Shown here: positions 58,922 to 64,000 of the stretch, piece after piece
Numbering within the stretch: position 1 is the first letter of the stretch
Layout: each line of letters begins with the position of its first letter
Assembly (NCBI RefSeq): GCF_000737595.1
Contig: NZ_CP006271.1
Location: 186,001-250,000 of the forward strand
Direction of reading: 5' to 3'
Origin: Synechococcus sp. KORDI-52
Lineage (GTDB): Bacteria; Cyanobacteriota; Cyanobacteriia; PCC-6307; Cyanobiaceae
DNA: 64,000 bases
The notes under the pieces: model-generated
Told to the model about the DNA's origin: nothing
The model's input: the letters and a program-made list of their open reading frames with translations, nothing else
Database searches by the model: none
Translations under genes and position numbers: made by a program

Positions 58922-60163
<1,242 letters not shown>

Positions 60164-60219
60164 GGCAGCAATCAAAGCAACGAACATTTCAACGACTTCG
60201 TGACTCAAAAACTGTCCAT

Positions 60220-60975
60220 TTATTTCAATTGCATATCCAGATAGGCCAGCTCCCAACTGAGGCTTACACCGCTTGAGTGGACGTTGACGCCAATGCAATC
60301 ACGCAAGGCAACCTCCAGCTCAGCCTTGGAACAAGTCTGCAAACCGAAAAGGCCAGCACAGAAGCTGAGCATTTGATCAACACTCTCAAAGGTCCAGGGG
60401 CAGGCACGACGCGAGACGTCGATGAGATCAAACCTCGGTGGAACCACCTGGGCAAAGAAATCACGGTAAAAGCCTCGGTGCCCACCGGGCGTATGACGGT
60501 CAACGAAGGTTTCCAGGAAGGCCTGCACTCCACTGCCAGGAGCCACATCAGCCAAGTGGAAGACTCCGCCAGATTTCAATGCACTCTCAACATTGGAATA
60601 CAGCGGAGATAAGTCTTGAATGTGATGAACAGCAGCCAAACAGACCACCCGATCAGCAGATTTCGCTGCGATAGGCCAGGGCGAATTCAAGCTGACAACA
60701 GTGGACTTGGCCCCGAAGCCGGACGTGAGCTCAAAGTTGTGAACGGAAGGCGTCGTACCGGGCATCTTGCGTTTCAAGAACGCCTCCAAGTAGCCCCCAC
60801 CAGATGGCACATCTACCAGGCACTCGCCAACCTTCAAGGGCGCCTTGGCAAAGAGAGAAGAAAACTCTGCATCACGGGCCGTTGGACAGGACAGCATCGC
60901 ATCGTGATAGAGCGATCCTCGCTGATCAAAAATCTCACCATACTCGTGCACAACCAGTGGAGCTGTAATATTCAA
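60220..60975 (-). CDS. Class I SAM-dependent methyltransferase
   Basis: The 251-residue protein has motif I VGECLVDVPSGGGYLEAF (GxGxG replaced by PSGGG) and a typical acidic-loop and strand-4 region (DRVVCLAAVHHIQDLSPL; SGGVFHLADVAPGSG). Substrate unknown. The start is probably TTG 60975; GTG 60951 is an alternative. It follows the ATP-grasp gene by 33 bases on the same strand, so they form a two-gene operon. Low G+C compared with the window. Confidence 0.7.
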   Translation of the reverse strand: MNITAPLVVHEYGEIFDQRGSLYHDAMLSCPTARDAEFSSLFAKAPLKVGECLVDVPSGGGYLEAFLKRKMPGTTPSVHNFELTSGFGAKSTVVSLNSPWPIAAKSADRVVCLAAVHHIQDLSPLYSNVESALKSGGVFHLADVAPGSGVQAFLETFVDRHTPGGHRGFYRDFFAQVVPPRFDLIDVSRRACPWTFESVDQMLSFCAGLFGLQTCSKAELEVALRDCIGVNVHSSGVSLSWELAYLDMQLK

Positions 60976-61008
60976 CGGTCAAGGACCAAAACTAAATTGA
61001 CGCCAAAA

Positions 61009-62838
61009 CTATTCAGACGAATCCAGAGCATCAAGATATTGAAACAAGGCTTTAGACGCCGGATTTGATGATGGTGGAATCATATTGAGAATCTTGATGC
61101 GAGAACGCGGCAAGATCCAGCCCCTTTTCAGCAACAATTCTGGAGTCATGAGACAAATCAATTCAGCAACGGATTTGTTCAGAAGCAACTCATTGGGATG
61201 GCAAAAAAAATGAACGCTGTTCTGCACGTCCCCAACCAAACAGGAGGCGAGATCAGCACGCAGAAGCAGCGGGCAGGCGAGAGTCGCGCCGGGGTGTTGA
61301 TCCATCAACAGCTTCAGCTGGTCTGCAGCCTTTTGGCCTGATTCCCCACTCCAATGGGCAAGAAGCAACGTACAAGGAATCGTAGATTGTGCATGGTCTG
61401 CAAACAGATTCTGCATCAAATCCCTGGCGCGATGTGGCTGCTGCTGAGGCATAAAATTGACCTCAATAAAAGCCCCTGGGTGGAATAAAGGATCCAGACT
61501 GATGTCTGTTGTGATGTAATCGACGCCACAACAATCAAGGCGCATTGTCTTGGCGATAGACAAGCATTGACTCACAATCCTCGGATGCACGGCTGCAGGG
61601 CTCATTTCTTCCCGCAAGCCACCAGTGCTCACATTCGAGTTTCGACGCAGTGGAACGGTTCGACCCGACTCGATGACGCTGTCCAGCTCAAAACCAGCCG
61701 ACGCAATACAACTCAAAACCTCAACGTCCTGAACATCAATCTCCGCCGACAAACCATCCTGCATGTGTTTCAATCGTCTGGACGCATTGAGCTTCTCGAT
61801 ACAGGCCTTGACCGTATCGGTTCCATTGCCGGTGATCACAGGAGCGCTTCGCTTCACAACAAACTCAAGGCGCCCAGCAGTGACGTTGAGTCGATAGTCG
61901 GATCCACACACATGCTCCTGGAGCAACAAGAAGTTTTGAGCTGTGCTTTGTCTTGCAACACCAATGGCGTCTTTCAGCACCTCAAAATCATGAATATTTG
62001 AAGTGACACCTTTGCCTTTTTCAGCGTCAGCTGGCTTAACGACACACGGAAAACCGATTCTATTGATTAACTGCTTGATCGTCGCGTCTGAACTGTCTGC
62101 ATCAAAACTGATTTGCTTGGGAACACGAACCCCAAGCCTGGCCAATAGACCATGCGAAGCACGTTTGTCATTGGCAAATGTCGCACCAAGATGACTGTCC
62201 AAATCGTTCGCCGAAGAGCTGCATAGTCTTCCCTGAACCCCTTCGCCGAAGTGATACGTCCTTGAACGTTCATCCAGCAGGGAGAAAGAAATCTCTCGTT
62301 TTGAAGCTTCGGCCAAAAGAGCTGCTGTCAATGGATGATCGCAGCAGACACGAACAAGCCGAACCAAACGAATGTGTTCAGCTTGAAAGCCTGGGGCAGG
62401 ATCGAATGGGATGTTGCCGGACCATCTTGAGAAACATTCCCGCAGAAGGTTGACGGACAATTGAACGACAGCACCCAAGATCTCGTGCTGATCACTTTCA
62501 ACGGCGAAACAAACTCCAACGGCCTTGACCTCAGGCCTCAAAGGGCAAGATCTTAATTCTGCAGGCGACAGCATGGATTGCGCCAAAGCAAAAACAACTT
62601 GTTCACAACCAGCCTCCTGCCGGCATTCAGCCTCAACCTTCCGCAGGATGGATGGCTTGATATTGAGCGCAGGAACCAAAAGACGCATCAACGTCCAGAC
62701 ATCCGCAACACGCAGGAACCGATGAACGGAGTCGAGCTGAGAATCACTTAAAGGCCAGTGAGCCAGCCAACATCGCCTAGCGAACAGAGGCCCTTCTCCC
62801 CAAACCTCAGAAACACTGACCTGAGGGAGATCAGCCAT
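61009..62838 (-). CDS. Cyanophycin synthetase-like ATP-grasp ligase lacking the Mur-ligase domain
   Basis: The 609-residue protein has a divergent N domain (1-190), then an ATP-grasp domain (about 195-475) with CphA-like segments: YHFGEGVQGRL, ANDKRASHGLLARLGVRVP, FPCVVKPADAEKGKGV, YRLNVTAGRLEFVVKRSAPVI, NVSTGG, LDCCGVD and FIEVN (metal ligands Asp440, Glu459, Asn461). A 130-residue C-terminal region of no known family follows, with no P-loop or Mur-ligase motif. It should join a carboxylate to an amine using ATP. Substrate unknown. Sampled G+C is 47% (61081-61140) against 72% in the phosphohexomutase gene. ATG 62838. Confidence 0.75.
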   Translation of the reverse strand: MADLPQVSVSEVWGEGPLFARRCWLAHWPLSDSQLDSVHRFLRVADVWTLMRLLVPALNIKPSILRKVEAECRQEAGCEQVVFALAQSMLSPAELRSCPLRPEVKAVGVCFAVESDQHEILGAVVQLSVNLLRECFSRWSGNIPFDPAPGFQAEHIRLVRLVRVCCDHPLTAALLAEASKREISFSLLDERSRTYHFGEGVQGRLCSSSANDLDSHLGATFANDKRASHGLLARLGVRVPKQISFDADSSDATIKQLINRIGFPCVVKPADAEKGKGVTSNIHDFEVLKDAIGVARQSTAQNFLLLQEHVCGSDYRLNVTAGRLEFVVKRSAPVITGNGTDTVKACIEKLNASRRLKHMQDGLSAEIDVQDVEVLSCIASAGFELDSVIESGRTVPLRRNSNVSTGGLREEMSPAAVHPRIVSQCLSIAKTMRLDCCGVDYITTDISLDPLFHPGAFIEVNFMPQQQPHRARDLMQNLFADHAQSTIPCTLLLAHWSGESGQKAADQLKLLMDQHPGATLACPLLLRADLASCLVGDVQNSVHFFCHPNELLLNKSVAELICLMTPELLLKRGWILPRSRIKILNMIPPSSNPASKALFQYLDALDSSE

Positions 62839-62876
62839 CGAATTAAAATTAAACCAATAGGATCAACTTAACACGA

Positions 62877-62898
62877 AAATACTTGAGCGAAAGTATTT
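62877..62898. repeat. Inverted repeat upstream of the ATP-grasp gene
   Basis: AAATACTT and AAGTATTT form an eight-base perfect inverted repeat around a GAGCGA loop, 38 bases upstream of the ATP-grasp start. It sits in an A+T-rich 234-base gap. It could be an operator or mRNA hairpin. No T-run directly follows it, so it is not a strong terminator for the photolyase gene. Confidence 0.45.
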
Positions 62899-63072
62899 CA
62901 ACGAGCAAACATCAAGACTGAAGTTCAGACCCCTTCAAGGCAACAGATTTGAGCACCTGCGCTCCAGCATTACCATGCAATCAACTTGTCGCCGCTTAAA
63001 CAGCAGCGCCTTTTGCTTGGCCTTTAAGTCTGGAACACAACTGTTTAAATTCAAGTTGATGTCTTTTACGAA

Positions 63073-64000
63073 CTACTGGCGAATCGTTGCGTAGAGAGCT
63101 TTAAAACGAGCCTGCTGCTTCTTGTGATCCACGAGCAGTTCGGGATAGTCCCGCCGTTCCAGAGCACCGATCTCCCCGCTGAGCAGATCCTTGGTGTTCA
63201 CATGGCGCAGCTCCGGCACCCACTGGCGGATGTAGTCCCCAGCTGAATCAAACTTGGAGGCCTGGGTTGCTGGGTTGAAGATGCGCAGGGGCTTGGGATC
63301 CATGCCGCTGCTCGCACTCCACTGCCAGCCACCGTTGTTCGCAGCAAGATCCCCGTCCACCTCCAGCTCCATGAAGGCGCGCTCACCCCAGCGCCAGTCG
63401 CAGATCAGGTCTTTGACCAGATAGGACGCCACGATCATCCGGCAGCGGTTGTGCATCCAGCCGGTCTGGTTGAGCTGACGCATGGCGGCATCAATGATCG
63501 GCATGCCGGTCTGCCCCTCCCTCCAGACCTTGAACCAGTCGTCGTTGTTGTCCCAAGGAAAACGACGCCACTGCTCGCGGTAAGGGCCATCGGCCAGTTC
63601 AGGGAAATGGAACAGGGCCTGCTGGTAGAACTCGCGCCAACCCAGCTCCTGTTCCCACACAGCGATGGCCTGCAAGTGCTCCTCGCTGCGGGCCTGCTCA
63701 CGGGCCGCCTGGGCCGTGCACCAGGCCTGGCGGGGACTGAGGGTGCCAACGCTCAGGGCCGCACTGAGGTAGGAGGTGCCTGGGATGCCGGGAAAATTGC
63801 GATCCGGTTCGTAGCCGAACAGGGGGCCATCGCAGAAACGGGTGAGCTGCTCGAAGGCCGCCGCCTCTCCAGGGCGACAGGGGCAGATCTCGGTGCCCTT
63901 GAAACCATGGTTGGCCTGCAGGGCCGCGAGGGACTCTCCCTCCGGAGCTTGAGCAGGATCCAGGTCCACCAAAGCGGAGGGAGCGGCAACGGTGCTGGGT
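63073..64000 (-). CDS. phrA: CPD deoxyribodipyrimidine photolyase, C-terminal part
   Basis: The gene enters from the window edge; the last 308 residues are seen and the start is beyond 64000. The FAD-binding domain has the full class I photolyase motifs: LGWREFYQQALFHFP, FPWDNNDDWFKVWREGQTG, GWMHNRCRMIVASYLVKDL, NNGGWQWSASSGMDPKPLRIFNP and YIRQWVPEL. It repairs cyclobutane pyrimidine dimers with blue light. It is separate from the split photolyase at 56394-57760. Confidence 0.93.
   Translation of the reverse strand, partial: PSTVAAPSALVDLDPAQAPEGESLAALQANHGFKGTEICPCRPGEAAAFEQLTRFCDGPLFGYEPDRNFPGIPGTSYLSAALSVGTLSPRQAWCTAQAAREQARSEEHLQAIAVWEQELGWREFYQQALFHFPELADGPYREQWRRFPWDNNDDWFKVWREGQTGMPIIDAAMRQLNQTGWMHNRCRMIVASYLVKDLICDWRWGERAFMELEVDGDLAANNGGWQWSASSGMDPKPLRIFNPATQASKFDSAGDYIRQWVPELRHVNTKDLLSGEIGALERRDYPELLVDHKKQQARFKALYATIRQ

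Follow-up and report, generated by a model that had tools for sequence, protein, structure and literature searches.

Cyanophycin synthetases have so far been known as makers of one polymer. The described forms closest to the protein considered here are CphA1 (7lg5, 7wae) and CphA2 (7ta5, 8fxh, 8fxi); the latter is presented in PMC9427784 as a cyanophycin synthetase without the Mur P-loop and lid. A relative of both is encoded in the window analyzed here, a 64,000-nucleotide stretch of Synechococcus sp. KORDI-52 (contig NZ_CP006271.1, positions 186,001 to 250,000), where two intact minus-strand open reading frames (ORFs) are separated by a minus-strand spacer of 33 bases (60976-61008, from the ORF coordinates). 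The upstream gene (61009-62838, ATG start) encodes a 609-residue, Mur-less ATP-grasp ligase resembling the cyanophycin synthetases, and the downstream gene (60220-60975, TTG start) a class I S-adenosylmethionine (SAM)-dependent methyltransferase of 251 residues. The pair is read, with a probability of about 60%, as an acquired two-gene cassette at the junction of phrA and a gene for a DegT-type aminotransferase, in which the ligase would make an amide other than cyanophycin and the methyltransferase would modify either that amide or a building block of it. The product would probably be a small methylated amino-acid compound, not cyanophycin.

The ligase and its relation to CphA1 and CphA2

The ATP-grasp core of the ligase was matched by the two cyanophycin synthetase models of NCBIfam, PRK14016 and TIGR02068, across residues 118-467 (expectation values (E) of 4e-55 and 1e-53), with scores well under the curated cut-offs (187 bits vs 877, and 182 vs 850). 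Models of N-acetylglutaminylglutamine synthetase and GshF, whose G domain is of the same ATP-grasp group, also matched (E 4e-36 and 2e-28), but they did so over their ATP-grasp parts only and fell far under cut-off. The RimK-like ATP-grasp family of Pfam was matched above its cut-off, and the PDB sequence matches at E<=0.01 were CphA1, CphA2 (7ta5, 8fxh), GshF and one D-Ala ligase. The G domain is homologous to that of CphA1, but identity to full-length CphA1 rows is 27-34% and spans little beyond this domain.

Active-site residues were mapped on a CphA1 row whose numbering coincides with that of TeCphA1, and the roles of all of them except N452 are taken from PMC9427784. All four members of the clade to which the ligase belongs (see below) retain K220, K261, R309, R323, N394, S396, D431, E450 and N452, so that the ATP/Mg residues of a CphA1 G domain (K220, K261, D431 and E450) are all present. 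Because the ATP/Mg and carboxylate-binding residues are kept, the ligase has the residues of an acyl-phosphate ATP-grasp enzyme, and it is predicted from them to be a catalytically complete member of the cyanophycin synthetase superfamily. Four other positions are substituted across the clade: E215 (to T, A or D), H267 (to K or Q), G456 (to Q) and R458 (to Q, A or S). Three of these, H267, G456 and R458, are the Asp-backbone residues of CphA1, and the window copy has K at the H267 position. The mapping also found no Cx19HxxEH motif in the N domain of the ligase, a motif given in PMC9262961 as a feature of primer-independent CphA1. Judged from these residues, changes have occurred in parts of the site that recognize the incoming aspartate and the cyanophycin chain. 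R470 of the window ligase is invariant across the clade. In the CphA1-like protein of G225 (L054:8059-10656, row A1_L054), too, the N-domain HxxEH is missing and the H267 position is Q.

A tree of the G domain was built from 35 rows picked by hand among the homologues, to which the labels CphA1, CphA2 and 'CphA1-like' were assigned by length, P-loop and residues and not by assay. The window ligase groups with that of Synechococcus sp. 1G10 (G157) with support of 100/98, and this pair is then joined by the ligases of two metagenome-assembled genomes (MAGs), LacPavin (G207) and UW140 (G376), at 99/94. The clade next joins four Mur-less proteins from the same order (99/96), while CphA1 (100/98), the five CphA2-like rows (100/100) and the CphA1-like group of the order (100/100) are each separate. 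Three rows sit on long branches. L002 (a duplicate of L061), the further full-length rows L004, L007 and L009, the broken or partial copies L046_7608, L049_292 and L050_161, and L050_13552 (the 680-residue ligase of 1G10) were omitted. In this tree the ligase belongs to neither CphA1 nor CphA2 and has a supported clade of its own. The Mur-less relatives at L037:9529-11325, L038:8112-9959, L039:8097-9947 and L042:7992-9848 have E or V in place of N394 and R in place of S396, and those in L037 and L038 adjoin autotransporter beta-domain ORFs.

The ligase can be divided into an N domain (residues ~1-160), an ATP-grasp G domain (~165-485) and a C region extending to residue 609. The Mur P-loop (GTNGKT), which is present in 8/8 CphA1 rows and absent from 5/5 CphA2 rows, is absent from the ligase, and Pfam gave no Mur-ligase match in the C region. 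Profile comparison with hhalign aligned this region (residue 473 onward), together with the four neighboring Mur-less rows, to the five CphA2-like rows over 107 columns (E 5.6e-5, probability 66%). The four clade members alone matched over 44 columns (E 8.3e-5) and the four neighboring rows alone at E 0.0056; matches to CphA1 had E values of 7e-4 and 0.004, and none was found to the CphA1-like proteins of the order (E 0.22-0.44). The G domain of TeCphA1 extends to residue 487, according to PMC9427784. As the domain thus runs ~14 residues beyond the cut at 473, the shorter matches lie partly inside it. The likeliest reading, with moderate support, is that the C region is a decayed Mur core, the Mur half probably having been reduced to a structural remnant.

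An initial annotation, made from the letters of the window, had described two minus-strand genes with 33 bases between them, flanked by a DegT gene and phrA, one for an ATP-grasp enzyme of cyanophycin synthetase type and one for a SAM methyltransferase, all of which agrees with the present results. It had also described the ligase as Mur-less, with unrecognized N and C domains. The lack of a P-loop stands; the C region, with its moderate match to CphA2, can probably no longer be called unrecognized, and the N domain has a match at the level of the fold only. The same annotation had held that a Mur-ligase match in residues 475-609 would speak against a novel system; Pfam gave no such match, yet the profile match to the CphA2 remnant goes a small way in that direction.

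The methyltransferase and its linkage to the ligase

The protein encoded by the second gene matched Methyltransf_11 of Pfam above the cut-off. It shares 45-47% identity with its three relatives, and a motif I-type sequence, DVPSG(G/S)GYL, is conserved in their alignment. The TTG start aligns with the MNI or MHL of the relatives, whose longest ORFs begin there or slightly upstream. An AlphaFold2 model was good (predicted local distance difference test (pLDDT) 87, predicted template modeling score (pTM) 0.85), and a Foldseek search with it returned 532 PDB matches at E<=0.001, the top rows being methyltransferases; BioC, YcgJ, NovO, JHAMT and HvrF are among the early rows. A second structure comparison placed 4VPMT2 (Z 18.2, root-mean-square deviation (rmsd) 3.8, 232 aligned residues) among many tied rows with varied substrates. 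Judged from the model and motif I, the protein is a class I SAM methyltransferase with a Rossmann-like fold.

BioC, JHAMT and trans-aconitate methyltransferase are carboxyl methyltransferases. Together with HvrF they share the fold of the window protein, but identity in the Foldseek rows is just 11-18%, and the curated cut-off for BioC was not reached (17.2 bits vs 184.95). As carboxyl methyltransferases are prominent but not exclusive among the fold matches, the atom that is methylated can only be guessed at.

A search of 33 further genomes from the genus, several of which are incomplete drafts, gave no match to the ligase. Across the order, ligase matches at E<=1e-10 occurred in 14 of 399 evenly sampled genomes, that of the window included, the best being 1G10 (40% identity) and the UW140 and LacPavin MAGs (34% each). 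The methyltransferase was found in 4 of the 399, exactly those with the closest ligases (Fisher p 1e-9, kinship ignored). A sample of 386 genomes across the phylum, not shown to include the other three carriers, had the methyltransferase in the genome of the window alone. Scanning of contigs with two conserved ligase patterns, which are degenerate (n=2) and would miss diverged carriers, returned three loci, those of 1G10, LacPavin and UW140.

The two genes are adjacent in three of the four carriers (the window, UW140 and LacPavin), and in LacPavin the stop of the ligase and the start of the methyltransferase overlap as ATGA. Between LacPavin and UW140, the ratio of non-synonymous to synonymous substitution rates comes to 0.32 (ligase) and 0.22 (methyltransferase), the latter calculated on the longest ORFs, in which ~20 codons precede the MNI start; values below 1 are consistent with purifying selection. 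In the gap that follows the pair in UW140 and LacPavin, where a third gene is possible, both strands are open and conserved.

Insertion at the phrA-DegT junction

The insert as a whole (60164-63072) is 2.9 kb long and has a G+C content of 50.2%. It is bounded by the DegT-type aminotransferase ORF (58922-60163, plus strand) and by the 3' part of phrA (63073-64000, minus strand; the complete gene, L043:11074-12567, encodes 497 residues). Between phrA and the ligase lies an AT-rich gap (62839-63072, 40.6% G+C) with short ORFs of up to 39 residues and no match to the sigma-70 consensus. A pattern scan for promoter-like and terminator-like sites was uninformative, with 0 of the former (2.1 expected) and 4 of the latter (4.4 expected).

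G+C content is 50.5% in the ligase gene and 53.4% in the methyltransferase gene, and positions 1-60163 of the window have 63.0%. Sampling of 2.9-kb stretches in 100-base steps upstream of 60.1 kb gave a mean of 63.0% (standard deviation 1.8) and a minimum of 59.3%, well above the insert. In the three relatives (1G10, LacPavin and UW140) the pair has 53-59% G+C, against 70-72% in the neighbors that were measured. The contrast claimed in the initial annotation is therefore present and still large, but its figure of 43-47% lies below the values of both genes.

Within the genus, 26 of 34 genomes gave a phrA match at E<=1e-100, that of the window and all 19 high-quality ones included. In 20 of the 25 others that bear phrA, the ends of the DegT gene and phrA overlap or are separated by no more than a few tens of bases. 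Four of the remaining five junctions hold other cargo of 41-51% G+C: a T2SSF fragment in G003 (L101), a cupin in G006 (L100) and RTX/cadherin genes in G021 (L099) and G023 (L098); in G008 there was no DegT gene in the stretch fetched. The phrA-DegT junction is a recurrent insertion site for low-G+C cargo in the genus.

In a survey of 18 genomes of the family, chosen and not random, 16 had phrA at E<=1e-80; CphA-like genes come next to it in four of these, DegT in nine, and neither within 1.5 kb in three. The four with CphA-like ligases (G157, G182, G376 and G207) belong to three other genera. In 1G10, phrA is followed by the ligase, DUF3326, a second methyltransferase, the methyltransferase, a CphA1-like gene, PGA_cap and DegT; in G182 by a CphA1-like gene and DegT; and in UW140 by a Mur-less ligase, a P450, a TauD-type oxygenase, a CphA1-like gene and DegT. 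The order in LacPavin is that of UW140, the contig stopping ahead of DegT, and some of the cluster genes of these two MAGs (L046, L049) are broken in the assemblies. The CphA1-like gene carries the Mur P-loop GS[IV]GKT; it was found with >=43% identity in 6 of the 399 genomes of the order, and with any match at E<=1e-30 in 10.

Identity between the window and 1G10 is 39% for the ligase and 47% for the methyltransferase, and ~65% for the flanking phrA and DegT. As the identity of the pair is below that of its flanks, and its G+C content below that of its neighbors in the relatives, simple descent together with the flanks is unlikely. Sporadic presence, the closed junction in 20 of 25 relatives, low G+C content and the other low-G+C cargo at this site all suggest that the rare gene pair was probably acquired by transfer, as the initial annotation had proposed; the conservation in most marine Synechococcus that would have contradicted it was not seen in the genomes searched. 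Its further proposal of a two-gene pathway gains support from the shared presence in four of 399 genomes and from the ATGA overlap in LacPavin.

Neither viruses nor plasmids could be identified as a vehicle. Pattern scans of viral contigs gave one stretch for the ligase and 73 for the methyltransferase alignment, none of which encodes a relative, and eight phage records match residues 171-469 of the ligase only, at 23-26% identity. Among plasmids, 126 records match the ligase, none of them across 80% of the query, and none match the methyltransferase; of the 30 plasmid rows shown, 28 bear the annotation cyanophycin synthetase or N-acetylglutaminylglutamine synthetase, one is unannotated and in one the matched stretch has no annotated feature.

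Proposed pathway and alternative explanations

In the proposed reaction, the G domain of the ligase would use ATP to phosphorylate the carboxylate of an amino acid or peptide, which would be held by the equivalent of R309. An amino acid or short peptide would serve as second substrate: its own carboxylate would be held by the equivalents of R323 and N394, and its amino group would attack the acyl phosphate to form an amide. With SAM as donor, the methyltransferase would methylate this amide or a building block of it, and the likeliest guess is a carboxyl O-methyl or an N-methyl group. The family and the kept residues argue for amide chemistry, and co-occurrence and gene order for a shared pathway. 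Cyanophycin itself is an unlikely product, because searches of the genome gave no other CphA homologue (at E 1e-3), no CphA1-like gene and no cyanophycinase, the model of which matched in 5 of 14 control genomes; an ATP-grasp_5 model gave two weak, below-cut-off matches elsewhere in the genome and was uninformative. The small, amide-linked and methylated product suggested in the initial annotation is plausible.

Several observations weigh against this proposal. In 1G10 the methyltransferase lies 3.7 kb from the ligase and precedes a full-length CphA1-like gene, so it could serve the CphA1-like enzyme instead, and the lack of such a gene in the genome of the window suggests that the pathway there may be reduced. 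The insert contains two genes only, no search having been aimed at mobile-element genes, and a cause other than recent transfer could also explain why the pair is lower in G+C content in each of the four carriers. The fold of the methyltransferase suits many types of substrate. In the ligase, the profile match of the C region lies partly in the tail of the G domain, and profile comparison of the N domain with CphA N domains gave no significant match, its alignment to CphA coming solely from Foldseek and VIA-align. Both used an AlphaFold2 model that is poor (pLDDT 56, pTM 0.34) because it rests on four sequences, attempts to add rows having yielded none. The top eight PDB matches in Foldseek are all cyanophycin synthetases, CphA2 (7ta5) included, over 623-700 columns, but with TM-scores of 0.13-0.20 and an rmsd near 25 Å. 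VIA-align aligned CphA1 and CphA2 chains from residue 1-5 onward (rmsd 13-23 Å), but GshF came first (Z 10.9), level with CphA1 and D-Ala ligases. The placement of domains in the model is therefore unreliable, and these matches are best taken to indicate similarity of sequence and local structure.

The alternative that fares best, though unlikely, is that the pair is a reduced or decaying leftover of a larger island, one with a CphA1-like Mur ligase and PGA_cap and, elsewhere, a P450 and a TauD-type oxygenase. The 1G10 island lies at the same junction and has both genes along with the CphA1-like gene and PGA_cap; moreover, the CphA1-like gene is present in three of the four carriers of the pair vs three of the 395 other genomes (Fisher p 8e-6, kinship ignored). 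However, both ORFs of the window are full length with the mapped active-site residues intact, and their order is that of UW140 and LacPavin, where the pair and the CphA1-like cluster occupy different contigs.

A second alternative, that the ligase is a cyanophycin synthetase of CphA2 type, is improbable in spite of considerable likeness. Both proteins have an N region, an ATP-grasp domain and a P-loop-less C region in ~600-640 residues, and their C regions match moderately. R458 and HxxEH are missing from the five CphA2-like rows too, all five have K at position 267 as the window copy does, and the ATP/Mg residues and R309, R323, N394 and S396 are kept in the ligase. However, the ligase falls outside the CphA2 clade; G456, retained in 5/5 CphA2-like rows, is Q in the ligase, which has the added clade-invariant R470; and the ligase is linked with a methyltransferase. 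Furthermore, as neither CphA1 nor cyanophycinase was detected, its genome offers no known source of the dipeptide beta-Asp-Arg, which CphA2 polymerizes with ATP.

ATP-grasp enzymes that modify ribosomal peptides or proteins (RimK-like or graspetide-like) exist, and the above-cut-off RimK-like match of Pfam would be compatible with such a role, the methyltransferase acting on the same target. This is slightly less probable still: the best and longest similarity of the ligase is to cyanophycin synthetases and not to RimK, and no candidate precursor was recognized in the phrA-side gap, where the longest ORFs (39 residues) are unconvincing. A defense or phage-related cassette is very improbable, for although variable low-G+C cargo occupies this junction elsewhere in the genus, that cargo consists of RTX/cadherin, cupin and T2SSF genes, and PADLOC gave no match at E 0.01 bar one of 44 residues in the methyltransferase (E 0.003).

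The proposed amide-forming cassette may have counterparts. Another Mur-less ligase (680-685 residues) abuts an unrelated Methyltransf_24 protein in both G182 and 1G10 (L048:7173-9898 and L050:13552-16262), the ligases being 51% and the methyltransferases 72% identical between the two genomes, and the placing of a Mur-less CphA relative beside a methyltransferase probably arose at least twice. No description of such a pairing was found in the open-licence literature, as judged on titles and the starts of abstracts. It is a tentative suggestion, and rather less probable than the cassette itself, that picocyanobacteria hold an undescribed family of CphA-like ligase islands centered on the phrA-DegT junction, of which the window would be a small version. 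In such islands, ligases with and without a Mur domain would be combined with methyltransferases, P450, Fe(II)/2-oxoglutarate oxygenase and PGA_cap proteins, and modified, possibly exported, non-cyanophycin peptides or polyamides might be the products. A clade that retains the chemistry but has altered substrate residues, no working Mur half and an accompanying methyltransferase would indicate that the CphA scaffold has been turned to other amides by small-genome organisms. The phrA-DegT junction offers a simple address at which to seek such pathways in picocyanobacterial genomes.

Two further observations concern the surroundings of these ligases. The second ligase/Methyltransf_24 pair adjoins genes x365 and x603 and, in 1G10, also a gene for a radical SAM/SPASM protein. 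At L034:14525-18156, a CphA1-like ligase with a Mur domain is immediately followed by a PGA_cap protein that weakly matches the model of the lasso-peptide epimerase MslH.

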